DNA of 34,054 nt, from assembly GCA_023512415.1 (NCBI GenBank), contig JAILZQ010000012.1:1-34054 (forward strand), written 5' to 3'. The notes beneath the pieces are model-generated. The model was not told the DNA's origin. It was given only the letters and a program-made list of their open reading frames with translations, and did not search any database. Shown here one piece after another: positions 10,112-25,328 of the stretch; position 1 is the stretch's first letter; each line of letters begins with the position of its first letter. This DNA comes from Geminicoccaceae bacterium. Lineage in GTDB: Bacteria > Pseudomonadota > Alphaproteobacteria > Geminicoccales > Geminicoccaceae. The position numbers were made by a program, and so were the translations under genes.

Positions 10112-10141
10112 ATTGTTCCGACAATAGGACAAATCCGTCAA
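10112..10141 (-). promoter_or_regulatory. Promoter with overlapping operator for the GntR-liv-hyu operon
   Basis: Reading the minus strand there is TTGACG (10141-10136), an 18-base spacer, and AACAAT (10117-10112) as -35 and -10 elements. The -10 lies within an inverted repeat ATTGT-N4-ACAAT (10112-10125). This is the only clearly AT-rich patch between the operon and the divergent cyclophilin gene. A dyad over the -10 just ahead of a GntR gene fits autorepression. The predicted transcription start falls at about the A of the regulator ATG. Confidence 0.55.
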
Positions 10142-10218
10142 GGGGGACTGCGGCTTTGCCCGACGGTGCGCGATGCGCTAAGTTCCTCTCGGTTCGCTCC
10201 ACCTGATGGACCTGCCCC

Positions 10219-10764
10219 ATGCGCTCCCGCCTCGCCCGCCTCGGCCTCGCCGCCGCGGCCTGCTTCGCCGCCGTCGAGCCGGCCGGTGCCGCCGACCCCG
10301 AGAACACGCTCCTGATCGACCTTTCGACCGGCGGGCGGGTGGTGATCGAGATGCTGCCCGAGATCGCCCCCAAGCACGTCGCGCGGATCAAGGAGCTCGC
10401 CCGCGACGGGTTCTACGACGGGATCGTCTTCCACCGGGTGATCGAGGGCTTCATGGCCCAGACCGGCGATCCGACCGGTACCGGCACGGGCGGCTCGGGC
10501 CGCGGCAGGCTTCCGGCCGAGTTCTCGAAGGTGCCGTTCGAGCGGGGGGTGGTCGGCATGGCGCGGACCCAGGACCCGAACAGCGCCGACAGCCAGTTCT
10601 TCATCATGTTCGCCCCGGCGCCGCACCTGAACGGCCAGTACACCGTCTGGGGTCGGGTCGTCGAAGGCATGGAGTTCGTCGACAAGATCGCCCGCACCGA
10701 GCCGCGCCGACCCGCCCGTCTCGACCGCATGGTCAAGGTCCGGGTCGCCGCCGACCAGCGCTGA
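10219..10764 (+). CDS. Secreted cyclophilin-type peptidylprolyl cis-trans isomerase
   Basis: A 181-residue cyclophilin with a Sec signal peptide (MRSRLARLGLAAAACFAA, cleavage probably after AGA at 22-24). Catalytic-site residues are visible: FHRVI (71-75), the M79-Q81-GD segment, SQFFIM (125-130) and NGQYTVWGRV (138-147). It should speed proline isomerisation during folding of exported proteins in the periplasm. It is transcribed away from the GntR operon, and the epimerase gene follows after 18 bases, so the two are likely co-transcribed. The gene appears complete and normal in length for a short bacterial PpiA/PpiB-like protein. Confidence 0.93.
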   Translation: MRSRLARLGLAAAACFAAVEPAGAADPENTLLIDLSTGGRVVIEMLPEIAPKHVARIKELARDGFYDGIVFHRVIEGFMAQTGDPTGTGTGGSGRGRLPAEFSKVPFERGVVGMARTQDPNSADSQFFIMFAPAPHLNGQYTVWGRVVEGMEFVDKIARTEPRRPARLDRMVKVRVAADQR

Positions 10765-10782
10765 CCCGAGGGAGCGCCGAGC

Positions 10783-11781: not shown

Positions 11782-12507
11782 GCCCGGAGCCTCGAGGACC
11801 CGCTGGCGGGCCTCGATCCGCTCTTCGAGGAGCGCCATGAAGCGGTGCCGGTCGAGGCCCGGCGGGATCGGCTCGAGGAGCTCGACCACCGCCCGGCCCG
11901 GCCGCTTGAGGAACGAACGGCGCGGCCAGAAGAGCCCCGTGTTCAAGGCGACGGGGACGACCGGCACGGCGAGCGCGGCATAAAGCGCCGCCACGCCCGA
12001 CTTGTAGTCGGGCGGCGCGCCGGGCGGCTTGCGGGTTCCTTCGGGAAAGATCACGATCGAGCAGCCGCGGCGGGCCTCCTCGCGGGCGCCGCGCACGAGC
12101 GATTTCAAGGCGGTGGCGGCCCCGCCGCGGTCGACGAAGATGCAGCCCGAGCGGGCGAGGTAGGACGCGAAGAGCGGGATCCAGCGCAATTCGCGCTTGA
12201 GACCGTAGACCACGTCGGTGCGGATCGTGTGGAAGACGAGCGTGTCGAGTGCCGATTGGTGCTTGGCCGCGAAGATCACGGGACCTTCGGGGAGTCGCTC
12301 GAGCCCGCGGACTTCGACTTCGAGCCCGACGATCCCGCGCAACAGGGCGAGCACCCCGCGCATCCAGGCCCGCGCGTAGAGGCGGACCGCGTGCGCGGAG
12401 AGGAACGGGAGCGCCGGCAGACCGGCGACCGTGGCGACCGCCGTGTAGAGGAAGAAGGCGAGGTTGAAGGCCGCCGAGCGCAGCCAGACGAACGCTTCCC
12501 CGAGCAA
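11725..12507 (-). CDS. plsC: 1-acyl-sn-glycerol-3-phosphate acyltransferase
   Basis: A lysophosphatidic acid acyltransferase of the PlsC family, about 260 residues. Motif I is AAKHQSALDTL (HX4D), motif II region includes GCIFVDRGG, and motif III is IFPEGTRKPPG. An N-terminal hydrophobic segment (AAFNLAFFLYTAVATVAGL) anchors it at the inner membrane, where it makes phosphatidic acid. No ATG precedes the conserved region; the TTG at 12507, with a GGGGGAACGGGG stretch upstream, gives the expected N-terminus (L/M-LGEAFVWLRS), but the start is uncertain. It follows ftsE-ftsX on the same strand after 65 bases. Its 3' end overlaps the convergent epimerase gene by 57 bases. Confidence 0.88.
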   Translation of the reverse strand: MLGEAFVWLRSAAFNLAFFLYTAVATVAGLPALPFLSAHAVRLYARAWMRGVLALLRGIVGLEVEVRGLERLPEGPVIFAAKHQSALDTLVFHTIRTDVVYGLKRELRWIPLFASYLARSGCIFVDRGGAATALKSLVRGAREEARRGCSIVIFPEGTRKPPGAPPDYKSGVAALYAALAVPVVPVALNTGLFWPRRSFLKRPGRAVVELLEPIPPGLDRHRFMALLEERIEARQRVLEAPGSARDAHPVIGTVPGDEPR

Positions 12508-12572
12508 GCCCCGTTCCCCCGCCGTCCGCTCCCGCCATCCAAGCGGGCGGCCGTGGATCCGGCAAGCCGCGC

Positions 12573-13463
12573 TCAGCGCAGCCGGGCGAGCCCGTGGATC
12601 GCCGCGAAGCGGGCCGAGAGGGTGACGAGCAGGGCGGCGACGACCGGGACCGTGGCGAGCAGGATCCAATCGAGCGGCCGCGGCACGGCCGGGACCAGGC
12701 GGGTGCCGAAGAGCGCGGGCAGGTGGACGAGGCCGAGGATCGTTCCGAGCGCGAGCGCGAAGCCGACGCTGCCGCCGCGCAGGGCGCTCGCCATGGCATG
12801 GAGCTCGAACTGGCGGGCGACGTAGCGGTCGGGTGCACCCAAAAGCCGCAGGAGATCGACCGTCTCGTCGTGCAGGTCGAGGCTCGCCCGGGTCACGAGC
12901 ACCACCACCACGACCAGAACGGTGAGCACGAGCAGGCCGGCGCCGCCGCCGATCCAGCGCAAGCGGCGCGCCACCTCCTCGAGTGCCCCACCGCTCGGGC
13001 TCGTTTCGTCGACCATGGCAGCGGGGGCGATCGCCCGCACGCGCCGCGTCACCTCCTCGAGGTCGGGAACCACCCCCGGCTGGAAGCGGACGTCGACGAG
13101 CCGCGGCAGGATCAGCTCGGCCCGCGCTTCGGCCGAGGCGCGGCCGATCCACGGCTCGACCAGCTTGTCGAGTTCCTCCTGCGAGACGAGCACGGTCCAG
13201 GCGACGCCCGGCAACGCCTCGAGGGCGGCGCGAACCCGGGCGAGCTCGGCCTCGCCCTCGGCCGGATCGTCGACCGCCGGCAAGGCGACGGTCAGGATCC
13301 GCGGCCGCTCGGCCAGTCGATCGATGGCGCCCTGCGCCAGCACGGCGACGGCGCAGGCGAGCGCCGCGAGGAAGACGAGGCCACCGATCAGCCAGGCGAG
13401 GAAGCGGCTCGCCGGCGTGTCGTCGAGCGGCAGGTCGAGTGCCTCGCCGCCCACGGTCCTCAC
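12573..13463 (-). CDS. ftsX: Cell division ABC transporter permease FtsX
   Basis: A 296-residue membrane protein with the FtsX layout: a cytoplasmic N-terminus, TM1 at about 22-45 (FLAWLIGGLVFLAALACAVAVL), a periplasmic domain of about 120 residues, then three C-terminal TM segments with the cytoplasmic loop HDETVDLLRLLGAPDRYVARQF between TM2 and TM3. With FtsE it forms the complex that activates peptidoglycan hydrolases at the division site. The GTG start at 13463 overlaps the ftsE stop as GTGA. Overall sequence conservation in this family is low; the ftsE neighbour makes the assignment safe. Confidence 0.92.
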   Translation of the reverse strand: MRTVGGEALDLPLDDTPASRFLAWLIGGLVFLAALACAVAVLAQGAIDRLAERPRILTVALPAVDDPAEGEAELARVRAALEALPGVAWTVLVSQEELDKLVEPWIGRASAEARAELILPRLVDVRFQPGVVPDLEEVTRRVRAIAPAAMVDETSPSGGALEEVARRLRWIGGGAGLLVLTVLVVVVVLVTRASLDLHDETVDLLRLLGAPDRYVARQFELHAMASALRGGSVGFALALGTILGLVHLPALFGTRLVPAVPRPLDWILLATVPVVAALLVTLSARFAAIHGLARLR

Positions 13464-14194
13464 TCCGCCGCCGTTCGGTCGGCCGGCACCGGGCGGATCA
13501 ACCGGCCGCGCTCCAGGTGCAGCACGGGGAAGGGCCAGCGGCGGATCAGCTCGCGCGAGTGGGTGGCGAGGACCACCGCGGTGCCGAGCCGGTGCAGCTC
13601 GCTGAACAGGAACATGAGCCGCTCGACGCGCGCGGGCTCGACGTTGCTCGTGGGCTCGTCGGCGAGCAACAGATCGGGCTTGGTGACCACCGCGCGGGCC
13701 ACCGTGACGAGTTGGCGCTGGCCCATCGAAAGCTGCGCGGGCTTCGCCTCCATCCGCTCGGCGAGGCCGAGCCAGCCGAGCATTTGCGAGACGTAGCTCG
13801 AGATCTGCTCCTCGTCGGCGCCGCCGATCCGCAGCGGCAAGGCCACGTTGTCGAACGCGCTCAAATGGTCCAAGAGCCGGAAGTCCTGGAACACCACGCC
13901 GATCCGTCGGCGCAGCCGGCCGAGCTCGTCACGATCGACGAGCGCCACGTCGCGGCCGAACAGCACCACATTGCCGCGCGAGGGCGCGGCCGAGAGGCTC
14001 ATCAGGCGCAGGAGCGAGCTCTTCCCGGCCCCGCTCGGGCCGACGAGATAGTGAAAGGAGCCGGCGTTGATCGTAAGATCGATGTCGCGTAGGACTTCGT
14101 CGCCGGAGCCGTACCGCATGCCGACCCCGTGCAGCTGCAGGATGGCCCGCCCGCTCCGGTCCCCGTCCACCCTCGTGTCCGACCCGGCCGACAT
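13460..14194 (-). CDS. ftsE: Cell division ABC transporter ATPase FtsE
   Basis: A 244-residue ABC ATPase next to ftsX. It has Walker A GPSGAGKSS (52-60), Q-loop FQDFRLLDHLSAFDNV (102-117, typical of FtsE), Walker B LLLADEP (175-181) and the H-loop ATHSRE. The signature is LSMGQ (155-159) instead of the LSGGEQ common in FtsE, and the D-loop reads SNVEP where GNLDP is usual. These changes are in residues that contact ATP across the dimer, so altered ATPase behaviour is possible, though the protein is otherwise full length. It is transcribed divergently from the zinc-ribbon gene, with a 93-base intergenic region. Confidence 0.92.
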   Translation of the reverse strand: MSAGSDTRVDGDRSGRAILQLHGVGMRYGSGDEVLRDIDLTINAGSFHYLVGPSGAGKSSLLRLMSLSAAPSRGNVVLFGRDVALVDRDELGRLRRRIGVVFQDFRLLDHLSAFDNVALPLRIGGADEEQISSYVSQMLGWLGLAERMEAKPAQLSMGQRQLVTVARAVVTKPDLLLADEPTSNVEPARVERLMFLFSELHRLGTAVVLATHSRELIRRWPFPVLHLERGRLIRPVPADRTAAE

Positions 14195-14287
14195 GCTCTC
14201 CCCCTATTGCAGATCGCGCGAATTTCGTCCACTGGAAACCAACCTTTCGGCGAGAAGCGCCAGCCCTCCTGTCGTTCGGGACGCGCC

Positions 14288-15016
14288 ATGATCGTGACCT
14301 GCCCGGGCTGTGGCGCGCGCTTCCGGGTCGATCCGGCCCGGTTGGGACCGGAGGGGCGGCGGGTGCGCTGCTCGGCCTGCGGCCATCGCTGGCTGGTCCG
14401 GCCCGAGCCCGAGGCGTCGGGCGGCGCCACGCGCGGAGCACCTTCGGCCGAGCCACCGCGGGCCGAAACCGTGCGCGCCGCTCCGCTCTCCCTGGTCACG
14501 GGCGAGGCCGCGCCGGCGGGCGGCCCTGCGGATCGGCCGCCGCCGCTCGCCGCCGCCCCGGCCCTCGGCCAGCCCCCCTCGGGCCGCGGCACGGCGATCG
14601 CCGGCTGGCTCGTCGTGGTCCTCATCTTGTTGGTCCTCGCCGGCCTCGTGGTCGGCCGCAACGAGGTGGTCGCGGCCTTCCCCCGGGCTCTCGCGCTGTA
14701 CGACCGGCTCGGCCTGCCGGTCACCGCGCGGCACGGCCTCGAGCTCAAGAACCTCCAGGCGCGGCGGCTCGAGGAGCACGGCGTCACGATCTTCGTGGTC
14801 GAGGGCGAGGTGCACAACCTCACCCGTTCGGAGCGGCCGATCCCGCCGGTCAGGGTGGCCCTGTTGGACGGCGAGGGCCGCGAGCTCGATTCGGCGCTGT
14901 TCCGGGCCGCCCAGCCGACCGTGGCGGGCGGCGGCGTCGCCCGCTTCGAGGCCAGGATGGTCGACCCGCCGCCGGTCGCGCGCAGCTTCCGCGTGGCCTT
15001 CGAGCCCGGCTCTTGA
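14288..15016 (+). CDS. MJ0042 zinc-ribbon/DUF3426 single-pass membrane protein
   Basis: A 242-residue protein beginning MIVTCPGCGARFRVD and CSACGHRWLV, a four-cysteine MJ0042-type zinc ribbon (residues 5-36). A proline/alanine-rich linker follows, then one transmembrane segment (about 100-123: GWLVVVLILLVLAGLVVG), and a C-terminal DUF3426-like domain of about 110 residues with VVEGEVHNLTRSERPIPPVRVALLD in pieces (VEGEVHNLT visible). Proteins of this kind are common beside ftsEX in alphaproteobacteria; their function is not established. The ATG at 14288 starts exactly at the zinc ribbon. tadA follows within about 20 bases. Confidence 0.88.
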   Translation: MIVTCPGCGARFRVDPARLGPEGRRVRCSACGHRWLVRPEPEASGGATRGAPSAEPPRAETVRAAPLSLVTGEAAPAGGPADRPPPLAAAPALGQPPSGRGTAIAGWLVVVLILLVLAGLVVGRNEVVAAFPRALALYDRLGLPVTARHGLELKNLQARRLEEHGVTIFVVEGEVHNLTRSERPIPPVRVALLDGEGRELDSALFRAAQPTVAGGGVARFEARMVDPPPVARSFRVAFEPGS

Positions 15017-15035
15017 GGTGTCGCCGCGGAGCCCG

Positions 15036-15467
15036 ATGGCCCGCGCGCTGGCCGAGGCCGAGGCCGCCGCGCGGCGCGGCGAGGTGCCGGTCGGCGCGGT
15101 CGTGACCGGGCCCGACGGGGAGATCCTGGCAGCCGACGGCAACCGGGTCGAGGAGCTCGCCGATCCGACCGCGCACGCCGAGATCCTCGTGCTGCGCGCG
15201 GCGGCACGCCGGCTCGGCACGCCGCGCCTTCCGGGCTGCGATCTGTACGTCACCCTCGAGCCTTGCCCGATGTGCGCCTACGCGCTCGCCCTCGCGCGGA
15301 TCCGGCGCCTTTATTTCGGCGCCGCGGATCCCAAGACCGGCGCGGTCGAGCACGGGCCCCGCCTGTTCGCGAGCCCGGTCTGCCACCATCGCCCCGAAGT
15401 CTACGGCGGAATCGCCGAGCAGGCGGCGGGCGAGCTGCTGCGCGCCTTCTTCCGCGCCCGCCGCTGA
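15036..15467 (+). CDS. tadA: tRNA-adenosine deaminase TadA
   Basis: A 143-residue cytidine-deaminase-fold enzyme. Zinc-site motifs are TAHAE (46-50) with His47 ligand and Glu49 proton shuttle, and EPCPMC (75-80) with the two Cys ligands. The C-terminal part FGAADPKTGAVEHGPRLF is typical of TadA, which converts A34 to inosine in tRNA-Arg(ACG). The ATG at 15036 has GGAG four bases before it; an in-frame GTG at 15018 would add six residues and cannot be excluded. It is co-oriented with and immediately follows the zinc-ribbon gene. Guanine deaminase is an alternative within the fold, but the HAE/PCPMC spacing and tail favour TadA. Confidence 0.93.
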   Translation: MARALAEAEAAARRGEVPVGAVVTGPDGEILAADGNRVEELADPTAHAEILVLRAAARRLGTPRLPGCDLYVTLEPCPMCAYALALARIRRLYFGAADPKTGAVEHGPRLFASPVCHHRPEVYGGIAEQAAGELLRAFFRARR

Positions 15468-15478
15468 CCGCTCCCGCG

Positions 15479-15506
15479 CCGGGCACCGGCCGCCACCGGG
15501 GCCCGG
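15479..15506. terminator. Possible bidirectional hairpin between convergent tadA and tatA
   Basis: CCGGGC (15479-15484) pairs with GCCCGG (15501-15506); inside an A-G mismatch CCGG (15486-15489) pairs with CCGG (15496-15499), leaving a six-base loop. It fills the short gap between two converging genes, where a terminator is expected. There is no T-tract on either side, so it is a structural candidate only. Confidence 0.35.
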
Positions 15507-15530
15507 ATGCGGCGGCCCGCCGCGCGCCGT

Positions 15531-15746
15531 TCAGGCCGGCTTGGGCTGCTCGCCGCCGGGCGGGGGAAGCTTGCCGGGCTCGCCGGCCGAGGGCGGGCCG
15601 GCCGGCGCCTCCTCTTCCTTGAGCCCGGCCTTGAAGGTCTTGATCCCCTTGGCCAGGTCACCCATCACGGTGGGCAGCTTGCCGGCGCCGAAGATCACCA
15701 CGACGATCCCGAGGATCAGGAGCGCCTCCCAGAAGCCGAAGACCAT
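15531..15746 (-). CDS. tatA: Twin-arginine translocase subunit TatA
   Basis: A 71-residue protein starting MVFGFWEALLILGIVVV with one N-terminal transmembrane helix, the hinge FGAGKLP and the amphipathic helix MGDLAKGIKTFKAGLKEEE, then a proline-rich tail. This is the TatA/E layout; TatA oligomers form the pore for folded proteins with twin-arginine signals. The ATG at 15746 has a strong GGGAGGGG ribosome site; an in-frame upstream start would add an unlikely basic stretch. No tatB or tatC is adjacent. Two binding proteins in this window (7990-9234 and 33678 onward) carry twin-arginine signals. Confidence 0.92.
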   Translation of the reverse strand: MVFGFWEALLILGIVVVIFGAGKLPTVMGDLAKGIKTFKAGLKEEEAPAGPPSAGEPGKLPPPGGEQPKPA

Positions 15747-15824
15747 CCACCCCTCCCGCCGGCGCCGACCGACGCCCTCCATGTGGGCCCGGCGCTCCCG
15801 CCAGGCAAGAACGACAGCCGCGCT

Positions 15825-15854
15825 CGCGCGGCGTCCCCGGGTGGCCGCCGCGCG
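15825..15854 (-). terminator. Hairpin just after the SARP-type regulator gene
   Basis: CGCGCGGCG (15825-15833) pairs perfectly with CGCCGCGCG (15846-15854), with a 12-base loop, starting five bases beyond the regulator stop codon on the minus strand. Downstream on that strand there is only a weak T-rich patch (TCGTTCTT), so it may be a weak or factor-assisted terminator ahead of tatA. Confidence 0.4.
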
Positions 15855-15859
15855 CCGCC

Positions 15860-17881
15860 TCAGCCGACCCGTTCGCGCAGCCCGGCCCGCCGCAATCCCT
15901 CGGCGAAGAGCTCGAGGTCGCGCGGCCGGCGGAGGGGATAATGTCGGACGAACGCTTCGAGCGAAAAGGCCGGCTCGATCCGATAGATGTCGGCGAGGGC
16001 GTGGGCCGCCTGCTCGCGCCGCCCGAGATGGCCGAGGGCCGCGAGCATCGGCAGATAGGCGCCGAGCAGGATGGGCTTGCGGGCGATCAGCGGGCGCGCC
16101 GCGGCGACCGCCGCCTCGAACCGCTCGGCCAAGAGGTGGGCGAAGACCTCGGCCCGGCCGAACAGGCTCTGCAGCGGGTCGAACGGCGACAGCCGGCGGT
16201 AGCGGGCCATCGCCTCGAGCGCGGCCTCGGGCTCGCCCCGGTAGCAGCGGACCAAGGCGTGGCGCGCCCAGGCCATCGGCAGGGCGGGGTTGAGGGCGAT
16301 CGCCCGCTCGGTGAGCCAGAGCGCATGATCGAGGTCGCGGGCGAGGGCTCGGGTCTGGGCGAAGGTGCAGAGCGCCAAGGGCTCGAGCGGGTCGAGTTCG
16401 AGCGCTCGGCTCGCGGCCGTCGCGACCTCGGCGATCAGCTCTTCGTGGCCGGCCCGCCAGGGATAGCCGGCCCGCAACATCTGCGTGGTCGCGAGCCAGG
16501 CGTGGGCGAGCGCGAGGTTCGGGTCGATCTCGAGCGCCCGGCGCAGGAGCCGGGTCGCCTCGACCAGCTGCGGCACGTCGAGCGCGTAGACCAACCGGAC
16601 GGCGCGCAAGACCAGGAGGTGGGCTTCGCCGCGCGCACTCGCGGGCGGATCGGATCGGCTGCTCTCGCGGACCACGAGCTCGCGCGCGACCCGCGCGGCG
16701 ATCGCCTCGGCGAGCCCGCTCGACAGCTCCCCGAGCGCTCCCGCGCCGAGGATTTCGTGGTCGGTCCAGAGCAGCCGGGCGGTCGCCGTTTCGACCAGCT
16801 CGACGCGCAGACGGAGCGCGCCGTCTTCGTGGGCGACCCGGCCGTACACGAGATAGCGCGCCCCGAGGCGGCGGGCGATCGCCGAGGGGTCGGCGAGCTC
16901 GCGGGCCAGCACCGCGGCCGAGCTCGGCGCCAGCACGAAGATCCAGCGGAACCGGGCGAGGGCCGCCGAGATCTCCTCGGCGAGGCCCTCACCGAGCGGG
17001 GGCAGACCGCCCGGACCGTCCTGCTCGCGAAAGGGCAGGACCACGAGCGAGGCGCCTTCCACGACCGCCTCGTCTCCCGCGGTCCCGGTGGACTCCGCTT
17101 CCACCACCGCGCCCGCTCGGATCCGGGCCAGAAGCCGCTGGGTCGACTCGCTCGGCCGCGCGTCGAGCAGTCGGTGGAGGGCCTCCCGGCACGCCTCGTA
17201 CTGGCGGATCGCCGCGGCCGTGTCGCCGCGCCGGGCGTGCAGCAGCATGAGCGCCCGGTGTGCCGGCTCGTGGGCCGGCTCGAGGGCCAGGATGCGGCCG
17301 GCGAGTGTCGCCTGCTCGCAGGGATCGGCGGTCGCCTCGAGCCCACGCTCCAGCGCCTCGAGGGCGACGCTCCGCCAGCGGGCCCGCTGGGCGGCGAGCC
17401 AGGCGTCGAACGGCCCGCCGAGCCCGTCCAGACCTTCGAGCAGCTCGCCCGGGGGCAGCTCCCCGGGTCCGACTTCCCCGCTCGGCGCGGCCGAGCGGGT
17501 GGCGAGCCGCAACGCATCGACCTCGATCCGGCCGACGTCCAACGCCACGCGATCGTGCGCGATCCGCAACAGCTCGGGCTCCGGCAGCGAGCACCGCAGC
17601 TCGCGCAGGGCCTGGCGGAGGCTGGCGCGTGCCTGCTCCTCGGCGCGTTCGGCCCAGAGCAGGCCGGCGAGCCGCTCGCGACCGATCGGCTGGCCCTCGG
17701 CGAGCGCCAGGACGGCCAAGAGGCCTCGGGCTTTGCGGCCCTTGGGCGTGCGGTCGGTGCCGTCGGGTGCGAGCAGGCGGCAGCCGCCGAGCAGTTCGAG
17801 CCGCCAGCGGCCCGGTGCGGTGGGGGCCGGGCTCGGCGGCGCGGGCTCGGACCGAGTGCGCAAGGTGTGGTCGGCTTGCAT
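15860..17881 (-). CDS. SARP/BTAD transcriptional regulator with TolB-like and TPR domains
   Basis: A 673-residue multidomain regulator. Residues about 26-100 form an OmpR-type winged helix as in SARP proteins (RLELLGGCRLLAPDG, TPKGRKARGLLAVLAL, GLLWAERAEEQARASLRQALREL). About 115-265 is a bacterial transcriptional activator domain (BTAD), ending in helical repeats (ARRGDTAAAIRQYEACREAL). About 280-400 is a TolB-like domain as found in adenylate-cyclase-type regulators (LVVLPFREQ, GLAEEISAALARFRWIFVLAP, LVYGRVAHEDGALRLRVELVE). Residues about 430-660 are TPR-like helices. The promoter at 17921-17949 lies just upstream, divergent from speE. No membrane segment is seen. Target genes are unknown; the divergent speE gene is the obvious candidate. 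Confidence 0.87.
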   Translation of the reverse strand: MQADHTLRTRSEPAPPSPAPTAPGRWRLELLGGCRLLAPDGTDRTPKGRKARGLLAVLALAEGQPIGRERLAGLLWAERAEEQARASLRQALRELRCSLPEPELLRIAHDRVALDVGRIEVDALRLATRSAAPSGEVGPGELPPGELLEGLDGLGGPFDAWLAAQRARWRSVALEALERGLEATADPCEQATLAGRILALEPAHEPAHRALMLLHARRGDTAAAIRQYEACREALHRLLDARPSESTQRLLARIRAGAVVEAESTGTAGDEAVVEGASLVVLPFREQDGPGGLPPLGEGLAEEISAALARFRWIFVLAPSSAAVLARELADPSAIARRLGARYLVYGRVAHEDGALRLRVELVETATARLLWTDHEILGAGALGELSSGLAEAIAARVARELVVRESSRSDPPASARGEAHLLVLRAVRLVYALDVPQLVEATRLLRRALEIDPNLALAHAWLATTQMLRAGYPWRAGHEELIAEVATAASRALELDPLEPLALCTFAQTRALARDLDHALWLTERAIALNPALPMAWARHALVRCYRGEPEAALEAMARYRRLSPFDPLQSLFGRAEVFAHLLAERFEAAVAAARPLIARKPILLGAYLPMLAALGHLGRREQAAHALADIYRIEPAFSLEAFVRHYPLRRPRDLELFAEGLRRAGLRERVG

Positions 17882-17920
17882 CGGGCTCGAGGCGTTCGGG
17901 TTCGATCCTTACAGAAGAAC

Positions 17921-17949
17921 ATTATTCACGACGAATTCACGTCTGTCAT
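17921..17949 (-). promoter_or_regulatory. Sigma-70-type promoter of the SARP-type regulator
   Basis: On the minus strand ATGACA (17949-17944) is separated by exactly 17 bases from AATAAT (17926-17921), each matching the consensus at five of six positions. This gives a leader of about 33 bases before the ATG at 17881. It is the best sigma-70-like promoter seen in the window. Confidence 0.65.
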
Positions 17950-18016
17950 GCGAGAATTGGGCGTGTGGCTTCACGCTCCCTTTCGCCTCGGTTGCGACAA
18001 GGCCCGTGCGCGCGTT

Positions 18017-18042
18017 CGCGATCGGCCGCGGGCCGGATCGCG
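18017..18042 (+). other. First leader hairpin upstream of speE
   Basis: CGCGATC (18017-18023) pairs with GATCGCG (18036-18042); GGCC (18024-18027) pairs with GGCC (18031-18034); G18035 is bulged and the loop is three bases. It lies 17 bases before the terminator hairpin. It could be the partner structure of an attenuator, or a fold of a small RNA. Confidence 0.5.
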
Positions 18043-18059
18043 GAAGCATAGTCGACCAT

Positions 18060-18094
18060 CGCCGGGGCTGGCGACCGTCCCGGCGCTTTTTTTT
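18060..18094 (+). terminator. Intrinsic terminator (plus strand) in front of speE
   Basis: A nine-pair stem (18060-18068 with 18077-18085, one G-T pair) with an eight-base loop is followed by one C and eight T (18087-18094), a classical rho-independent terminator reading toward speE. No plus-strand gene ends upstream; the nearest plus-strand stop is tadA, more than 2.5 kb away. It therefore ends either an early speE leader transcript (attenuation) or a short RNA starting in the AT-rich patch near the regulator start. Confidence 0.7.
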
Positions 18095-18208
18095 CCGGCC
18101 GACCGACGCCCGACGATCCGGCGGCGCCCGCGCCCGCCGTCTCGACGCCCGCCCTGGGCTGCGCTAGGGGCGGTCGAAAGAGGTCGACGGCGTGGTGAGT
18201 GCGCAGCG

Positions 18209-19054
18209 ATGGAGTGGTTCGAGGAGACGCTCTGGCCGAACTGGGCGCAGAAGATCCGGGTCAAGGAGGTCCTCTTTCACGAGAAGACCGCCGTCCAGGA
18301 CCTGATCGTCTTCGAGTCCTGGAGTTGGGGGCGGGTGCTCGCGCTCGACGGCGTCGTCCAGGTCACGACCGCCGACGAGTTCATCTACCACGAGATGATG
18401 ATCCACCCGGCCGTGCTCGCCCACGGCCGGGTCGAGGAGATGCTGATCATCGGCGGCGGCGACGGCGGCTGCCTGCGCGAGGCCTGCCGCTACCCGACGA
18501 TCCGGCGGATCACCCAGGTCGAGATCGACGCGGGTGTCATCGAGTTCTGCCGGCGTTATCTGCCGACCGTCTCCGCTGGGGCCTACGACGATCCGCGCGC
18601 CCGCATCGTGATCGCCGACGGCGCCGCCTTCGTGCGCGCGTGCCCGGACCGGTTCGACGTGATCGTGGTCGATTCGACCGATCCGCGTGGCCCCGGGGAG
18701 GTCCTGTTCACCGCCGAGTTCTACACCGCCTGCCGCGCGCTCCTGCGACCGGGTGGCATCATGGTCACCCAGTGCGGCAACCCTTCGATCTACCCCGACG
18801 AGCTCGTCTTCACCCAGGAGCGCCAACGCCGCGCCGGGTTCGCCGACGTCACCTATTTCTTCGCGCCCGTGCCGACCTACATCGGCGCCAACATGGCGCT
18901 CGGCTGGGCCTCGGACGAACCGGCGCACCGCCGCATCACCGCCGAGGAGCTGCGGCGGCGGGGGGTCCCGGCGGGCCTCAAGCACTACACGCCGGAGATC
19001 CACCTGGCGGCGTTCGCGCACCCCGCCTGGATGATCGAGCGGGTGGGCTATTGA
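18209..19054 (+). CDS. speE: Spermidine synthase (polyamine aminopropyltransferase)
   Basis: A 281-residue aminopropyltransferase. It opens MEWFEETLWPNWAQ and has LFHEKTAVQDLIVFE, GRVLALDGVVQ and DEFIYHEMM (57-64), the nucleotide-binding GGGDGG (82-87), Asp105/Glu-type ligand region QVEIDAGVIEFC, and the catalytic DSTDPRGPGE (155-164). It transfers an aminopropyl group from decarboxylated S-adenosylmethionine to putrescine. No speD (AdoMet decarboxylase) is adjacent. The start ATG gives the normal family N-terminus; ribosome-site signal is weak. A plus-strand intrinsic terminator lies 115 bases upstream, suggesting leader-level control. Confidence 0.95.
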   Translation: MEWFEETLWPNWAQKIRVKEVLFHEKTAVQDLIVFESWSWGRVLALDGVVQVTTADEFIYHEMMIHPAVLAHGRVEEMLIIGGGDGGCLREACRYPTIRRITQVEIDAGVIEFCRRYLPTVSAGAYDDPRARIVIADGAAFVRACPDRFDVIVVDSTDPRGPGEVLFTAEFYTACRALLRPGGIMVTQCGNPSIYPDELVFTQERQRRAGFADVTYFFAPVPTYIGANMALGWASDEPAHRRITAEELRRRGVPAGLKHYTPEIHLAAFAHPAWMIERVGY

Positions 19055-19267
19055 GGCCGGGCTCGGCGGCCGGCGCACAAGGTGGTACCGCACCGGCTCG
19101 ATTGCCACATCCCGAGGACCGCTCACCTGCCGCGCGAGCTTGTGTTAACCGCGCGGTAAGGTTAGTCCGCTAGACACCAAGGCGCGAAGGACGCGCCGCC
19201 GGTTTCGGGGAGTGCGTCAGGGCCGCTCGGGGGAGCTGCCCCTTCCGATCCGTCAGCGGGTGCGACG

Positions 19268-19645
19268 ATGATCAGTGATGCTGCCAAAGTGAGCCGGTCG
19301 GGTGCGGAGAGCGCGCCGGCCGAGGCGGCGCCGGCCGAATGGCCGTTCGCCGAAGGGGTGACCCTCGAGGGGTCGATCGCCGATCCCGCCGAGGAAACGG
19401 TGACCCTCCTGCTGGCCGACCTCGTCCAGGACAGCAACGGCGAGATCGTGCTCTTCAACGATTCGAACCTGCGCCGTCTCGCGCTCGTCACCGAGGCGAG
19501 CGAGGTCGCCCGGGGCGAAGCCCCCCACCACGTGACCGCCGCGGGCGAAGACGTCACGGGCTTCGCCTACGTCACCTTCGACAACGGTGTGACCCTCTAC
19601 TACCAGCCGCCGCTCGAGCTCCTCGTCCATTCCGAGCGCAGCTGA
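19268..19645 (+). CDS. Acidic protein of unknown function
   Basis: A 125-residue acidic protein that I do not recognise. The first 30 residues are Ala/Glu/Pro-rich and probably disordered; the rest alternates short hydrophobic strands (TVTLLLADLVQ, GEIVLFND, LALVTEASEVA, FAYVTFDNGVTLYYQPPLELLV) and looks like a small beta-rich domain. No signal peptide, membrane segment or cysteine is present. The amidohydrolase gene follows after 13 bases, so they are probably one transcript. The 213 bases before it contain a perfect 10-bp palindrome ACCGCGCGGT (19148-19157) in the only AT-richer stretch, a possible promoter/operator zone. Codon use and base composition match the neighbours, supporting a real gene. 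Confidence 0.7.
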   Translation: MISDAAKVSRSGAESAPAEAAPAEWPFAEGVTLEGSIADPAEETVTLLLADLVQDSNGEIVLFNDSNLRRLALVTEASEVARGEAPHHVTAAGEDVTGFAYVTFDNGVTLYYQPPLELLVHSERS

Positions 19646-19658
19646 GCGCGCGCCGGCG

Positions 19659-20516
19659 ATGCCGGATCACCCGATCGTCGACGCGCACGTCCACCTCTAC
19701 GACCCCGCGGTCCTGCCCTACGGCTGGATGCGCGGCGATCCCGTGCTGGACCGGCCGCACGGCCTGGCCGAGCTCGACCGGGCGGCGGGTGCGGTCGCGA
19801 TCGAGAAGCTGGTGTTCGTCGAGGTCGCGGTCGACCCGGGCCACCATCTCGCGGAGGCCCGCCGCGTCCAGGCCCTGGCCGACCGCGATCCGCGGATCGG
19901 CGCGATCGTCGCGCACGTCCCGGTCGAGCGCGGGGCCGCGGTCGAGGCCGATCTCGACGCGCTCCAGGCCCTGCCCGCGCTGCGTGGCATCCGCCGGCTG
20001 ATCCAGGACGAACCCGATCCGGCCTTCTGCCTCGCCGCCGATTTCGTCGAGGGCGTGCGGCGGGTGGGTGCCCGCGGCTTGGTCTTCGAGCTCTGCCTGC
20101 GGGCCGGGCGCGGCCAGCTCGCGCCGGCCACCGAGCTGGTCCGCCGCTGCCCCGACACCCGCTTCGTCCTCGACCATCTGGGCAAGCCGCCGGTCGCGGC
20201 GGGCGGGCTCGACCCGTGGCGGGCCGAGCTCGCCGAACTCGCGCGCTGCCCGAACGTCGTGTGCAAGCTTTCGGGGCTGATCACCGAAGCCGATCCGTCA
20301 CGCTGGACGCGGGCCGAGCTGCGCCCCTACCTCGAGCACGCGCTCGAATGCTTCGGCCCGGAGCGGGTGATGTACGGCAGCGACTGGCCGGTGAGCGCCC
20401 GCACCCACCTCTACACGACTTGGGTGGCGATCCTCGACGAGGTCCTGGCCGGCCTGGAGCCCGTAGCGCGCGAGCGGGTCTGGCGCGGCAACGCCCGGGC
20501 CGTTTACCGCCTCTGA
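19659..20516 (+). CDS. Amidohydrolase-2 family lactonase (L-fuconolactonase/L-rhamnonolactonase-like)
   Basis: A 285-residue TIM-barrel hydrolase of the COG3618 type. Metal-site motifs are DAHVHLYDP (8-16), later FVLDHLGKPP and MYGSDWPVS with the conserved Asp; CKLSGLITEAD precedes the last motif. Members hydrolyse sugar lactones (L-fucono-, L-rhamnono-lactone) or 2-pyrone-4,6-dicarboxylate. The aldo/keto reductase gene about 100 bases downstream belongs to the family that makes sugar lactones from aldoses, so a dehydrogenase-lactonase pair for a deoxysugar is a reasonable inference. Complete and normal in length. Confidence 0.85.
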   Translation: MPDHPIVDAHVHLYDPAVLPYGWMRGDPVLDRPHGLAELDRAAGAVAIEKLVFVEVAVDPGHHLAEARRVQALADRDPRIGAIVAHVPVERGAAVEADLDALQALPALRGIRRLIQDEPDPAFCLAADFVEGVRRVGARGLVFELCLRAGRGQLAPATELVRRCPDTRFVLDHLGKPPVAAGGLDPWRAELAELARCPNVVCKLSGLITEADPSRWTRAELRPYLEHALECFGPERVMYGSDWPVSARTHLYTTWVAILDEVLAGLEPVARERVWRGNARAVYRL

Positions 20517-20524
20517 GCGACCGA

Positions 20525-20545
20525 CGCCGCGTCCCCTTCGCGGCG
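20525..20545 (+). other. Short hairpin after the lactonase gene
   Basis: CGCCGCG (20525-20531) pairs perfectly with CGCGGCG (20539-20545) around a seven-base loop, nine bases after the stop codon. No T-tract follows. It may cap the 3' end of the lactonase message or be chance in GC-rich DNA. Confidence 0.35.
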
Positions 20546-20593
20546 ACCGGAGCCCCATCCGGCCTCCCCGCCCGCCCCCGGCTCGGCTAGCCT

Positions 20594-20608
20594 TCCGACC
20601 GGGTCGGA
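20594..20608. promoter_or_regulatory. Inverted repeat ahead of the aldo/keto reductase gene
   Basis: TCCGACC-G-GGTCGGA is a perfect seven-base dyad with a one-base centre, 13 bases before the ATG at 20622. The position would suit a repressor site or a structure near the ribosome site. GC-rich dyads arise by chance, so this is tentative. Confidence 0.3.
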
Positions 20609-20621
20609 CGGGGAGGCGGAG

Positions 20622-21647
20622 ATGGCGGAAGAGCTGCCACGGCGGCGGGTCGGGCGGACCGACCTCGAGGTCACGGTGCTCGGGCTGGGTGGGGCGCCGC
20701 TCGGCGATCTCTACGAGAAGATCCCGGACGCGCGCGCCTGGGCCACGATCGAGGCGGCCTGGCAGGCCGGCATCCGCCTGTTCGACACGGCCCCGCTCTA
20801 CGGCCATGGGCTCAGCGAGCACCGGATGGGCGAGGTGCTGCGCTCCAAGCCGCGGGACTCCTTCGTGCTCTCGACCAAGATCGGGCGGGTCCTCGAGGCC
20901 GCCGATCCGCGCACGATCGACCGCGGCCAATGGGCCGGCGGCCTGCCGATGCGCTGGCGGTTCGACTACACGGCCGCGGGTACGCGGCGGTCGATCGAGG
21001 ACAGCCTGCAGCGGCTCGGCCTCGAGCGGATCGACATCGTCTTCGTCCACGATCTCGACCCCTGGTGGTGCCCGACCGCCGAGATCTTCGAGCAGCGCTT
21101 GCGCGAGCTCATGAACGGCGGCTGGAAGGTCCTGGACGAGCTGCGCGCGGCCGGTGCGATCCGGGCGATCGGCCTCGGGGTGAACGCGGTCGAGCCCTGC
21201 CTGCGGCTCGCCCGCGAGGCCGACCCGGACGTGTTCCTCCTGGCCGGCCGCTACACGCTCCTCGAGCAGGGCGGGCTCGACGATCTCCTGCCGCTCGCGC
21301 GCGCGAGGGGTTTCTCCTTCCTTTTGGGCGGGCCCTACAATTCCGGGATCCTCGCCACCGGGGCGGTGCCCGGCGCGCGCTACGACTACGAGCCCGCACC
21401 ACCCGAGATCCTGGAGCGGGTCCGGCGGATCGAAGCGGTGTGCGCACGCCACGGTGTGCCCTTGAAGGCGGCGGCGATCCGCTTCCCGCTCGGCCTCGAT
21501 CGGGTCGCGGCGGTCGTCCCGGGGGCGGTCCGGCCCGAGGAGGTCGAGGAGAACCGCCGGCTGATCTCCTGGCCGATCCCGCACGCTTTCTGGGAGGAGC
21601 TCGTGGCCGAGGGGCTCCTGGCCGAGGGCGCTCCCCTGCCGCCTTGA
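20622..21647 (+). CDS. Aldo/keto reductase (L-fucose/D-threo-aldose dehydrogenase-like)
   Basis: A 341-residue NAD(P)-dependent (beta/alpha)8 oxidoreductase. The catalytic tetrad is visible as Asp55 and Tyr60 in FDTAPLYGHG, Lys86 in STKIGR and the His in VFVHDLD; the C-terminal VVPGAVRPEEVEEN is the coenzyme-binding region. The sequence is closest in pattern to D-threo-aldose 1-dehydrogenase/L-fucose dehydrogenase and pyridoxal 4-dehydrogenase. Together with the upstream lactonase it could oxidise an aldose to the aldonate via the lactone. The ATG at 20622 has GGGGAGGCGGAG immediately upstream. The gene is complete. Confidence 0.88.
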   Translation: MAEELPRRRVGRTDLEVTVLGLGGAPLGDLYEKIPDARAWATIEAAWQAGIRLFDTAPLYGHGLSEHRMGEVLRSKPRDSFVLSTKIGRVLEAADPRTIDRGQWAGGLPMRWRFDYTAAGTRRSIEDSLQRLGLERIDIVFVHDLDPWWCPTAEIFEQRLRELMNGGWKVLDELRAAGAIRAIGLGVNAVEPCLRLAREADPDVFLLAGRYTLLEQGGLDDLLPLARARGFSFLLGGPYNSGILATGAVPGARYDYEPAPPEILERVRRIEAVCARHGVPLKAAAIRFPLGLDRVAAVVPGAVRPEEVEENRRLISWPIPHAFWEELVAEGLLAEGAPLPP

Positions 21648-21677
21648 GCCGTCGCGAGCGGGCCGGCCGAAGAAAAC

Positions 21678-21712
21678 GGCCCGCGCCTGCCGTCGTCGGG
21701 CGGGCGCGGGCC
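21678..21712 (+). terminator. Hairpin downstream of the aldo/keto reductase gene
   Basis: GGCCCGCGCC (21678-21687) is perfectly complementary to GGCGCGGGCC (21703-21712), loop of 15 bases, 30 bases past the stop codon. GAAGAAAAC precedes it, which would make a T-tract only on the opposite strand. As a plus-strand terminator it lacks the T-run; it is a strong structure of uncertain role. Confidence 0.5.
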
Positions 21713-21906
21713 CCAAGGATGTCTCAGCCCTCAGCGGCTCTCTTCCTGCCATCGGGGCCGGCGCGGTTCTGTGGCGAAACGCACAGGTCGCGATCCCGTC
21801 CGTGCTTATAGCCGAGATCGGGCCCCCACCGCGGCCGCGGGCGGGCCCGGGAGAGGCGGAAGGTCGCCGGCCCGGCCGGCGGCGACGGTCGAGGAGGACC
21901 CGATCC

Positions 21907-22674
21907 ATGCCCTTGTGCGAACGCGATCTGGCGATCGTCCAGCTCGGGGTCGATTCGCTCACCCGGACGATCGCCGAGCTCGGCCTCACGCTCCTGATCG
22001 AGCAGGATTTCGACGGGCTCGCCGCGTTCCTCCGCGCGCGCGGCAGCTTCGTCAACCCGAGCTTCGATCCGGCGGTGAGCCGGCTCGGCTGGCGCGATTT
22101 CTGGGTCCATTTGTTGGATCCGGCCGGCCGCTCGATCGCCTGCAGTGCCGAGAAGGTGATCGAGACCGACGATTTCATGGAGGAGGTGGCGACCGGCCGG
22201 ATCTGGTACGAGGGTGGCTTCGCGGCGCGCGGCGGGCCCGAGCGCATCGAGGTGGTCCGGCCGAGCGTGCGCCTTGCCGGCACGCTCAGCCATTCGGGCT
22301 CGACCTGGGTCGACCCGGTCTGGCGCGGCCACGGGCTCGCCATGCTGATGACCCGGCTGTCGCGGGCGCTCTCCTTCCGCAACCACGGGGTCGCCGCGAA
22401 TACGGGCTTCGTCCGCCACAGTCTCTACGTGACACCCGTGCCGACCGAGAGCTACGGCTATGCGCATGTCGAGAAGTGCCTGGACGGCTTCTTCCCGCCG
22501 CAGAACGGGCCCGAGGTCCTCTATCTCTGCTGGATCACCGACCTCGAGTTCGTCCGTTCGGTCCAAGCGCTGCCCGAGCATCCGCGCCGTCCGGTCCCGC
22601 TCGCTCCGGCCGAGCCGGCGCCTCCGCCGGCAACCGCCCCCGCCGCCGCCACGCTCGCGGTGAACGGGAGGTGA
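21907..22674 (+). CDS. GNAT-like acyltransferase, first of a tandem pair
   Basis: A 255-residue protein of a family I cannot name. The middle part looks like a GNAT acetyltransferase: beta-strand SHSGSTWVDPVWRGHGLAMLM resembles motif A (V-P--RG-GLA), followed by a helix with LSRALSFRN. Around it are IEQDFDGLAAFL near the N-terminus, a very conserved AEKVIETDDFMEEVATGR block and YGYAHVEKCLDG near residue 180. The C-terminus is an Ala/Pro tail. Its neighbour at 22832 is a paralogue, 140 of 206 positions identical in a hand alignment without gaps. The ATG follows AGGAGG by nine bases. No signal peptide or membrane segment. Substrate unknown. Confidence 0.78.
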   Translation: MPLCERDLAIVQLGVDSLTRTIAELGLTLLIEQDFDGLAAFLRARGSFVNPSFDPAVSRLGWRDFWVHLLDPAGRSIACSAEKVIETDDFMEEVATGRIWYEGGFAARGGPERIEVVRPSVRLAGTLSHSGSTWVDPVWRGHGLAMLMTRLSRALSFRNHGVAANTGFVRHSLYVTPVPTESYGYAHVEKCLDGFFPPQNGPEVLYLCWITDLEFVRSVQALPEHPRRPVPLAPAEPAPPPATAPAAATLAVNGR

Positions 22675-22831
22675 CATCGGGATACGATCGGCCGCCGAAG
22701 TCGTTTGGTTAACAAAGGGTTATCGCCGAGAACGGGTCCGCCGCGGAAGACGCGGCCTCGACTCCCGGCGGGACCGGCGGTGGGCGCGAGCCCCCGCCGC
22801 GTTCCGGGGGTTGCCAGGAGGACCCGTGCCC

Positions 22832-23569
22832 GTGTCCACGCCGGACGACCGTCACGTTCCCCTGCAGGACGGGATCGACGCCCTCGCCGATGCCGTCGCC
22901 CGCCTCGGCCTGTCGCTCGTGATCGAGCGCGATTTCGACCGCCTCGTCCGCTTCCTCGAAAGCCAGGGGAGTTTCGCCAACCCGTCCTTCGATCCGCGCC
23001 GGAGCCGGCTCGGGCCCGAGGATTTCTGGCTCGCGGCGCTCGACGCGGAGGGGGCGATCGTGGCCTCGAGCGCCGAGAAGGTGATCGAGACCGAGGACTT
23101 CATGGAGGAGGTGGCGACCGGCCGGATCTGGTACGAAGGCGGTTTCGCCCGGGTCTTCGGCGTCGAGCGGGTCCCGACCCTGGCGGTGAGTGTGCGGCTC
23201 GCGGGTCGCTTGAGCCACTCCGGCTCGACCTTCGTCGTGCCCTCGCACCGCCGCTCCGGGCTCGCCATGTTCCTGCCGTGGCTCTCGCGCGCGCTCTCCT
23301 TCCGCAACGCCGGCTGCCTCGCCAACACGGGCTTCGTCCGGCAGAGCCTGGCCGACACGCCCGTTCCCCAGCGTTCCTACGGCTACGCCCATGTCGAAAA
23401 GTGCCTGGACGGCTGGTTCCCGCCGCAGGGCGGCTCGGAGGTGCTCCATCTCTGCTGGATCACCGCCGAGGAGTTCCGCGCCAAGCTCGCGACCCTGCCC
23501 GAGCATCCGCGTCACCCGGTGCCGCTGCCGGTAAGGCCTCGTCCCCGTCTCGTGCCGGTCGCGGTCTGA
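22832..23569 (+). CDS. GNAT-like acyltransferase, second of a tandem pair
   Basis: A paralogue of the preceding gene, about 245 residues, with the same layout: IERDFDRLVRFL, the AEKVIETEDFMEEVATGR block, SHSGSTFVVPSHRRSGLAM as the likely GNAT motif A, ANTGFVRQSL and YGYAHVEKCLDG. In the acyl-CoA-binding loop the first copy has RGHGLA and this one RRSGLA. The GTG at 22832 stands ten bases after AGGAGG, matching the spacing of the first copy; an in-frame GTG at 22826 is also possible. The 157 bases between the copies hold an AT-rich island (22706-22725) that may be a separate promoter. The last 110 bases overlap the convergent PAS-like gene. Function unknown. Confidence 0.76.
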   Translation: MSTPDDRHVPLQDGIDALADAVARLGLSLVIERDFDRLVRFLESQGSFANPSFDPRRSRLGPEDFWLAALDAEGAIVASSAEKVIETEDFMEEVATGRIWYEGGFARVFGVERVPTLAVSVRLAGRLSHSGSTFVVPSHRRSGLAMFLPWLSRALSFRNAGCLANTGFVRQSLADTPVPQRSYGYAHVEKCLDGWFPPQGGSEVLHLCWITAEEFRAKLATLPEHPRHPVPLPVRPRPRLVPVAV

Positions 23570-24074
23570 GCGCCTCCGGCCGGGCCTCGTCCGCCCCGGC
23601 GCCGACCAGGCGCACGCTCTCGCGCAGCCGGCAGAGCTGCAAGAGCTCCTTGACGCGCACGCCGTCGTCGGCCGTCGGCAGCAGGAGCTGGCGCCACCGT
23701 TCGAGGGCGAGCGGGCCCTGTACCACGAGGTCCTGCAGGAGCGGCGAGCCGGTGAACCGGACCGTCCGCTGGTCCTCGCGCAGGAGCTCGCCGAGGGTGC
23801 GCCGTGCCGCTCGCGGATCGGCCGCCTCGGCCGCGGCGAGGGCCTCGAGCCGACCGAGCGGGGCGGGGCCGCCATCCGGGCCGGGCGGGGCGAGCCACTC
23901 CGCCTCGGGCAGCAGGAGCCGGAGCTGCGGTGTATCGAGCGCGCAGCGCGGCGGTAGCAGTCCGTCGGTGCGCCGCGCCATCCAGGCGCGCAGCGCGATG
24001 TCGAGGGCCGGATCCGCACCGCCGAGGTAGGCGAGGGGCAAAGGGCGCTTGGCGAGCCAGACGAGCGCGGCCAT
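23460..24074 (-). CDS. PAS_5-like domain protein
   Basis: A 204-residue protein that resembles the alphaproteobacterial PAS_5 family: DPALDIALRAWMARRTDGLLPPRCALDTPQLRLLLPEAEW in pieces (AWMARR, LPPRCALD, LRLLLPEAEW) matches the usual N-terminal pattern, and RWRQLLLPTADDG matches the C-terminal L-LP-SDDG strand. The ATG at 24074 has GGGAGA five bases upstream. It is on the same strand as, and 171 bases downstream of, dctP. The final roughly 36 codons are antisense to the end of the second GNAT-like gene and are Arg/Ala-rich, so this tail may be an extension by read-through into overlapping sequence. No signal output domain is attached. Assignment is by pattern only. Confidence 0.6.
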   Translation of the reverse strand: MAALVWLAKRPLPLAYLGGADPALDIALRAWMARRTDGLLPPRCALDTPQLRLLLPEAEWLAPPGPDGGPAPLGRLEALAAAEAADPRAARRTLGELLREDQRTVRFTGSPLLQDLVVQGPLALERWRQLLLPTADDGVRVKELLQLCRLRESVRLVGAGADEARPEALRPRPARDGDEALPAAAPGDADARAGSRAWRGTPRR

Positions 24075-24245
24075 CGGGTCTCCCGGGCTTCGGGCGGACC
24101 GAGGAGGCAGAACCGAACCGGCGCCGGCCCACCCCCACGTCCGCCCCGCCAGTCTCCTGGGCGAGCGTAAACGGCTCGCTGAGGTCCGTCCGAGAGCCGG
24201 GTCGCGGCGCATCTCGGTACCGCCGCGGCCCCGGCCGCGCCCGGC

Positions 24246-25298
24246 TCAGCCGCCGACCTGGAACAGCCGCTTCCGTTCGGCGTCGACCTGCGCTTCGGCG
24301 GCCGCGAGCGCCTGCTCCCAGGCGTCCAGCCACTCGCGGCCGTACTTCTCCGCGAACCACTTCTTGGCCGCCTCGCGGCCCGGCACGAGCTTCGCCTTCT
24401 CTTCGGGCGGCATCACCCGGATCGTGCCGCCCTCCTTGACGAATTGTTCGTAGGCGCGGCTCTCGAACGCCTTGTTGAAGTCGGTCTGCACGCGCGCCAT
24501 CTGCTCGACCCCGTCGACGACCAGGATCCGGAGGTCTTTTGGCAGCGACTTGAGCCAGGCGTCGCTCATCCAATAGAACCCGTAGAGATACATGTGTTCG
24601 TCGATGACGACGTGCTTGACGACCTCGTGCAGCTTGTTGGGCACGACGTCGGTGATCGCGATGTTGAGCCCCTCGGCCACGCCCGTGGCGAGCGAGGTGT
24701 AGACCTCGCCCCAAGGGATCGGCACCGGGTTGGCGCCGGCGCCGCGGACGAAATTGACCTGGATCGGGCTGTCGACGATGCGAATCTTCATGCCGGCGAG
24801 ATCGGCCGCCTTGAGCACCGGTTTCTTGGTGAAGAAGCTGCGCCAGCGGCCCGTGTTGCCCATCGCCACGAGCCGGACGTTGCCGGTCTTCTTCAAGACC
24901 GCGTCGCGGAGCTTCTCGAAGAACGGCCCGCGGCCCACCGTCTCGGCCACGAGATCGTCGCGGATCATGTAGGGGATGTCGGTGACCTGGATCTCGGGGA
25001 AGAAGGCCGAGGCGCCGCCGACCGAGGTGTGGGTGAGCTCGAGGGTGTTGAGCTGGATCTGCTCGAACAGCTCGCGGAACTGGCCGAGCTGGCCCGCCGG
25101 GTAGATCTCGACCTTGATCCGCCCGCCCGAGCGACTCTCGAGGAACGACTTCAAGAAGACGCCGGGCACGTGGTCGTCGGAGTTCTCGGTGGCCGGGCCC
25201 ACGTGCGCGTATTTGAGGGTGAATTGCTGGGCGCCGAGCGGGCCGGCGGCCAGCAATGCGGCGCCCCAGGCGACCGCTCCGAACAGCATGGTGCGCAT
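24246..25298 (-). CDS. dctP: TRAP transporter substrate-binding protein DctP
   Basis: A 350-residue periplasmic binding protein with a Sec signal peptide (MRTMLFGAVAWGAALLAAGPLGAQ). The mature part begins FTLKYAHVGPATENSDDH and has the DctP pattern: GRIKVEIYPAGQLG, the LKAADLAGMKIRI segment containing the Arg that binds the ligand carboxylate, and IPWGEVYTSLATGVAEGLN. It captures an organic acid for the DctQM permease. The ATG follows GGGAGG by seven bases. It is the last TRAP gene of the cluster (order Q, M, P), 30 bases after dctM. The substrate cannot be told from sequence. Confidence 0.93.
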   Translation of the reverse strand: MRTMLFGAVAWGAALLAAGPLGAQQFTLKYAHVGPATENSDDHVPGVFLKSFLESRSGGRIKVEIYPAGQLGQFRELFEQIQLNTLELTHTSVGGASAFFPEIQVTDIPYMIRDDLVAETVGRGPFFEKLRDAVLKKTGNVRLVAMGNTGRWRSFFTKKPVLKAADLAGMKIRIVDSPIQVNFVRGAGANPVPIPWGEVYTSLATGVAEGLNIAITDVVPNKLHEVVKHVVIDEHMYLYGFYWMSDAWLKSLPKDLRILVVDGVEQMARVQTDFNKAFESRAYEQFVKEGGTIRVMPPEEKAKLVPGREAAKKWFAEKYGREWLDAWEQALAAAEAQVDAERKRLFQVGG

Positions 25299-25328
25299 CG
25301 TCCAACCTCCCTTTTGTCGATGCCCCCC

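Follow-up and report, generated by a model that had tools for sequence, protein, structure and literature searches.

What is a strong intrinsic terminator doing just upstream of speE, the gene for spermidine synthase, in a Geminicoccaceae bacterium, and which transcript does it end? A first-pass annotation, made from the DNA letters, proposed either a leader of speE that is controlled by premature termination or a short RNA that stops at this point. We followed up both proposals in the window (the whole 34,054-nucleotide stretch of contig JAILZQ010000012.1 that was analysed) and in a comparison set of six genomes of the window's genus, referred to as G000 to G005. The reading that we favour, at a probability of roughly 0.55, is that of a short terminator-ended RNA which would be transcribed divergently from a gene for a SARP-like regulator and would probably be controlled by that regulator, speE being an independent gene next to it. 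The features on which the argument draws are listed here in window coordinates.

15860-17881, minus strand: divergent SARP-like regulator gene, 673 aa, with a weak winged-helix match, a BTAD domain and a TPR part (from Pfam, a profile match and orthologues)
17921-17949, minus strand: promoter-like pair of the regulator, ATGACA-17-AATAAT (10 of 12 matches, 0 expected locally)
17925-17941, plus strand: direct repeat TTCACG-N5-TTCACG with an 11-bp period, within the regulator promoter; probable operator (once per genome in four of six)
17970-17975, plus strand: third TTCACG; possible -35 or operator of the short RNA (five of five genomes, one as CTCACG)
18008-18020, plus strand: invariant 13-mer GCGCGCGTTCGCG, probable 5' part of the RNA (identical in five of five genomes)
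18017-18042, plus strand: first hairpin, variable in sequence, pairing partly kept, statistical support weak
18060-18094, plus strand: intrinsic terminator, a nine-pair stem and eight T (24 of 37 columns, 18058-18094, invariant in five genomes)
18141-18168, plus strand: promoter-like pair CTCGAC-N16-GCTAGG between the terminator and speE; probable speE promoter
18209-19054, plus strand: speE, spermidine synthase, 281 aa (TIGR00417 at 283 bits and PRK00811 at 325 bits, both above cut-off)

The terminator, the first hairpin and speE

Both structures that the first-pass annotation had seen before speE, a bulged hairpin at 18017-18042 and a nine-pair hairpin with eight T at 18060-18094, were confirmed in the sequence. 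The stem of the second, at 18060-18085, is formed by CGCCGGGGC...GTCCCGGCG and has nine pairs, eight of which are G-C, and the run of eight T occupies 18087-18094 on the plus strand; a G+C-rich hairpin followed by a U-tract, the layout of an intrinsic terminator, is therefore present at 18060-18094. This terminator is strong and one-directional, and 114 bases separate its last T from the speE start (ATG at 18209). In the local 501-base region, two terminator-like sites were found against 0.3 expected, both of them being this same terminator. A loose terminator rule applied to the whole window returned seven sites, one in 1-17000 and six in 17001-34054 (two of these six being one site counted twice), compared with 4.5 and 3.9 in shuffles, so the loose rule alone is no proof. 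Only two of the seven window sites combine at least nine pairs with at least seven T, namely the terminator upstream of speE and a site at 28830.

The latter, at 28830-28860 on the plus strand, is a second strong intrinsic terminator with 10 pairs and seven T. It lies directly 3' of an ammonium-transporter gene (PF00909), so that what is likely a gene-end terminator in this genome resembles the one upstream of speE.

The first hairpin can be read by eye as CGCGATC-GGCC-gcg-GGCC-g-GATCGCG, with 11 pairs and a one-base bulge, and folding adds further pairs below these. Compared with dinucleotide shuffles, its segment shows no extra stability (z of -0.96, -0.12, 0.18, -1.51 and 0.05 in the five genomes that carry it), and the whole unit of 86-92 bases yields z from -0.87 to -1.99 in the same genomes. 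A 186-base piece that begins at 17925, in the AT-rich patch, has a z of 0.08; its minimum-energy fold pairs the bases of the first hairpin otherwise, and its centroid fold retains the terminator. Standard pairs make up 90% of the counted structure versus 37-51% of slid versions. Changes on both sides were found for 3 of 18 pairs, a figure that 114 of 500 shuffles also reached, and within the first hairpin three of the seven counted pairs are altered on both sides in some genome, a covariation that is weak with five sequences. Since the shuffle z is ordinary, the 186-base fold differs and that many shuffles match the both-sided changes, the pairing is plausible rather than proven; the bases of the first hairpin can indeed pair in this way, but this is nothing unusual.

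According to the first-pass annotation, no promoter was visible between the terminator and speE. A promoter-like pair does stand there, and its core, CTCGAC-N16-GCTAG, recurs upstream of speE with the same spacing in all six genus genomes, including G003. The more permissive pattern CTCGAC-N16..19-GCTAG has a single match on both strands of the 34-kb window, and likewise a single match in each of five other genus stretches (6.5-9 kb).

Some further observations concern the surroundings of speE. The gene directly follows another ORF, which is presumably speD, in several other genera of the family (e.g. L029, L033, L035 and L040), and it stands alone in this genus. Behind speE, a 125-aa ORF (19268-19645, plus strand) is kept in the five other genus genomes with 63-78% identity, and it retrieved no Pfam or NCBIfam match at E<=0.001. 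Further downstream, at 21802-23569 on the plus strand, the ORFs 21802-22674 and 22811-23569 are visibly similar, apparently through tandem duplication.

The divergent regulator and the TTCACG repeats

As the first-pass annotation had stated, there is a gap of about 2.5 kb in plus-strand genes upstream: the nearest recognised one, which we take to be a deaminase-like ORF, ends at 15467. The minus strand carries a regulator gene in this interval. Its product matches BTAD in Pfam (2.1e-10) and, under the cut-off, Trans_reg_C (6e-4), and it has a profile match to the AfsR chain 8hvr_I over residues 4-240 (1.1e-6); several TPR chains outscore 8hvr_I, over the C-terminal part of the regulator. The combination of an AfsR-like winged helix with BTAD, by which SARPs are recognised, is thus found here, with the winged-helix Pfam match below cut-off. 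Orthologues are present in G005 (77%), G004 (72%), G001 (57%) and G002 (66%, cut by the contig end). Their alignments start at residues 7-24 (12-38 in G001), and the true start codon of the regulator may therefore be further in.

The AT-rich patch, which the first-pass annotation had noted upstream of the terminator, carries a promoter-like pair on the minus strand (17949-17921) that would fit the divergent regulator gene. Overlapping this pair are the first two of three copies of TTCACG, which start at 17925, 17936 and 17970. The third copy lies 34 bp after the second (33 in the other four genomes) and, in all five genomes, 37-39 bases 5' of the 13-mer, reading CTCACG in G004. The -10 upstream of the 13-mer, a TGCGAC-like sequence, is poor.

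The exact pair TTCACG-N5-TTCACG occurs once per genome in four of the six genus genomes, always at this locus, and is found in neither G005 nor G003; the first TTCACG of G005 is degenerate, leaving one intact half of the pair only. The reversed pair pattern has no match in the six genomes. With at most one mismatch, the pair is found at 7 places in G000, 6 in G002, 14 in G001, 8 in G005, 3 in G003 and 9 in G004, and the reversed pattern at 3, 0, 2, 1, 10 and 1 places in the same order; given 3-14 such places per genome, other targets or a wider regulon are possible. According to PMC10972967, SARPs generally recognise repeated heptamers, which overlap the -35 region and classically follow an 11-bp period. 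Direct repeats of 11-bp period are found here in a putative target promoter, in degenerate form in G005.

From this arrangement we infer that the TTCACG copies, lying between the two units, are probably binding sites of the regulator. The regulator would repress its own promoter, in which the repeat pair fills the space from the -35 to the -10 and abuts both, and would control the promoter of the RNA through the third TTCACG.

Elsewhere in G000 (C85:2212-2251, or 1013-1052 of L114), two identical 17-base pieces, GTCACGTGTCGTTCACG, lie 23 bp apart. The ORF downstream of them, on the minus strand, starts at L114 945 and, as we assume, resembles a polyprenyl-phosphate sugar transferase. This pair is a possible second target of the regulator.

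The conserved unit and its distribution

Conservation in relatives had been named beforehand as a test of the two hairpins and the T-tract. The terminator stem with a T-run of at least six is kept in five of the six genus genomes, and the pairing of the first hairpin is partly kept. The whole element is present in those five (G000, G001, G002, G004 and G005), always between the regulator and speE, and the order 13-mer, hairpin, terminator is the same within 83-90 bases in every one of them. Over these five genomes, all 13 columns of 18008-18020 are invariant, and so are 24 of the 37 columns of the terminator, 11 of the 28 of 18141-18168 (where G002 is misaligned), 11 of the 32 of the repeat patch and 9 of the 29 that run from TTCACG to TGCGAC; elsewhere in the intergenic region the figures are 7/37, 1/17, 0/9, 5/22, 1/15, 2/46 and 4/40.

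No other invariant run is as long as the 13-mer. When the 277 ungapped columns (five genomes) were shuffled 100000 times, 7 of the shuffles produced 13 invariant columns in a row, a figure that is only indicative because conserved columns cluster anyway. The 13-mer contains an inverted repeat, CGCG-N4-CGCG, and as a word it is not rare: exact copies number 1 in G000 (the element itself), 5 in G002, 14 in G001, 3 in G005, 9 in G003 and 2 in G004, similar to or below the reversed control (1, 9, 13, 4, 33 and 2, respectively).

These conservation data indirectly favour the short RNA among the two proposals of the first-pass annotation, at a smaller size than the 130-180 bases given there. The terminator would close an RNA that is non-coding and some 85-90 bases long (approximately 18005-18094, its start being placed by inference), transcribed away from the SARP-like (BTAD) regulator gene on the opposite strand. 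Such an RNA would presumably act in trans, and the invariant 5' 13-mer is a candidate contact site. A more specific version, in which one divergent small RNA is the main target of the SARP-like TPR regulator and carries out the response via its invariant 5' 13-mer, would amount to an undescribed two-part switch; we regard it as speculative and on balance doubtful.

The element was found in all five genus genomes that have the regulator at this locus, and it is missing in the only one that lacks it, G003. There, speE, the four upstream genes and the ORF behind speE are kept in the same order (the stretch ends before the next genes), the regulator was not found at the locus (the closest match anywhere in G003 reaches 29% and covers the C-terminal half), and the element was not found at the speE locus. 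A tree of one gene, speE, places G003 as the sister of G001 (97/99), which makes loss of the unit in G003 the simplest reading; G003 probably lost the regulator and the element, retaining speE. We would caution that the two are contiguous and that a single deletion in G003 would therefore remove both without any functional linkage, so their joint absence does not by itself demonstrate that they cooperate. What G003 does show is that speE can be kept in a genome without the element.

To cover a wider range of relatives, a covariance search such as the first-pass annotation had suggested was run with a model, R1, on 31 genomes of the family. Matches were obtained in 29 of the 31 at E<=1. Those at E<=2.7e-12 are the five loci from which the model itself had been built; outside them no match was better than E 1.3e-4, the 25 family genomes outside the genus included. 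Weaker R1 matches inspected as members of a wider RNA family (G045:C502, G040:C602, G003:C31 and G002:C58) were rejected, a five-T run being found in none, and DNA matches in other genera, of which 3 of 10 were inspected (L004, L006 and L011), proved to be GC-rich pieces without a terminator. A simple rule applied to 12 more distant BTAD homologues found an opposite-strand element of the same architecture at none of them. Among more distant BTAD homologues, L090 has a different terminator-like site opposite the gene, and in L099 (33% identity) an 11-bp repeat with a different sequence, CGAATTCATGACGAATT, lies close to the gene start.

Rfam returned no family at gathering score in the whole window. 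Four matches at E<=5 in 17800-18300 are all far under gathering (e.g. 18.2 of 36 bits), and a resemblance to sroD, at 18.1 bits versus a gathering score of 50, was put down to chance. As far as these searches reach, the RNA candidate appears to be restricted to one genus.

Alternative readings and known systems

The main rival of the short-RNA reading is that the terminator only shields speE from stray transcription of the plus strand, which would run antisense to the regulator gene, with no discrete RNA. The position of a strong one-directional terminator between speE and 2.5 kb in which no plus-strand gene was recognised suits this explanation, as do the poor promoter before the terminator and the unremarkable first hairpin. 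Nevertheless, it leaves unexplained both the invariant 13-mer and the TTCACG that precedes it at a nearly fixed distance in five of five genomes, and we consider it rather improbable.

An attenuated speE leader, in which transcripts from the AT-rich patch would end at 18094 unless a signal (a polyamine, as the first-pass annotation suggested, or another) permits read-through, is unlikely. The location before speE, the two hairpins and a terminator kept in five of six genomes are consistent with it, and some piece of the leader can pair with the 5' arm of the terminator in each of the five genomes. These antiterminator-type pairings (-14.6 to -21.1 kcal/mol, versus -20.0 to -25.1 for the terminator) are, however, weaker than the terminator in each genome, and the pairing pieces are not at one common place (positions 15-25, 19-30, 16-32, 2-17 and 28-38 in the leader, which was covered from the 13-mer on; three overlap). 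Also against it are the opposite-strand promoter-like pair in the AT-rich patch, the presence of speE without the element in G003 and the lack of an Rfam match at gathering score, and no leader ORF of 6-60 codons is common to the five genomes, some being found in G000 and G004 and none in the other three. We set the attenuator aside mainly because a promoter-like pair stands between the terminator and speE in six of six genomes. Less likely still is a DNA site, in which a different regulator would use the 13-mer as its operator, the terminator belonging to an unrelated read-through transcript: the inverted repeat and the length of the invariant run would agree with this, but not the constant order of 13-mer, hairpin and terminator within 83-90 bases.

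Under the short-RNA reading, speE would be an independent neighbour with its own promoter 3' of the terminator, and the terminator would separate the two transcripts. The arrangement resembles that of trans-acting bacterial sRNAs encoded opposite their regulator genes in being a short intergenic unit with a terminator and U-tract, a conserved 5' stretch and a divergent regulator; unlike them, the candidate is known from sequence, has no Rfam match and is found in one genus only. With AfsR-afsS and other SARP operators of Streptomyces it shares an AfsR-like N-terminus, 11-bp-period repeats in a putative target promoter and a small adjacent target. The afsS gene encodes a small protein, whereas the adjacent target here looks non-coding, the host is an alphaproteobacterium and the C-terminal part of the regulator is TPR.

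Two polyamine-related RNAs also invite comparison. The speF leader RNA, known from alphaproteobacteria, is likewise found in the neighbourhood of a polyamine gene in such a host, but the gene here is a different one and this RNA is not among the Rfam matches. A spermidine riboswitch found before speE and other genes is a variant of SAM-I and, in the case described in PMC10853860, uses an antiterminator. Our locus is similar in having a terminator before speE, and differs in having neither an Rfam match nor an antiterminator at a shared place, and in the speE promoter-like pair downstream.

Narrow literature searches retrieved no paper on a small RNA in Geminicoccaceae and none on divergent regulator/sRNA pairs in alphaproteobacteria; the candidate is likely to be novel, the breadth of those searches being the reason why we do not call this established. 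If the short-RNA reading is true, it would add to what is recorded for uncultured Geminicoccaceae a small RNA not yet described, together with the regulator that probably controls it, and polyamine sensing at speE would be dropped as a false lead. Being without the unit, G003 would then provide a natural control for the unit's function.
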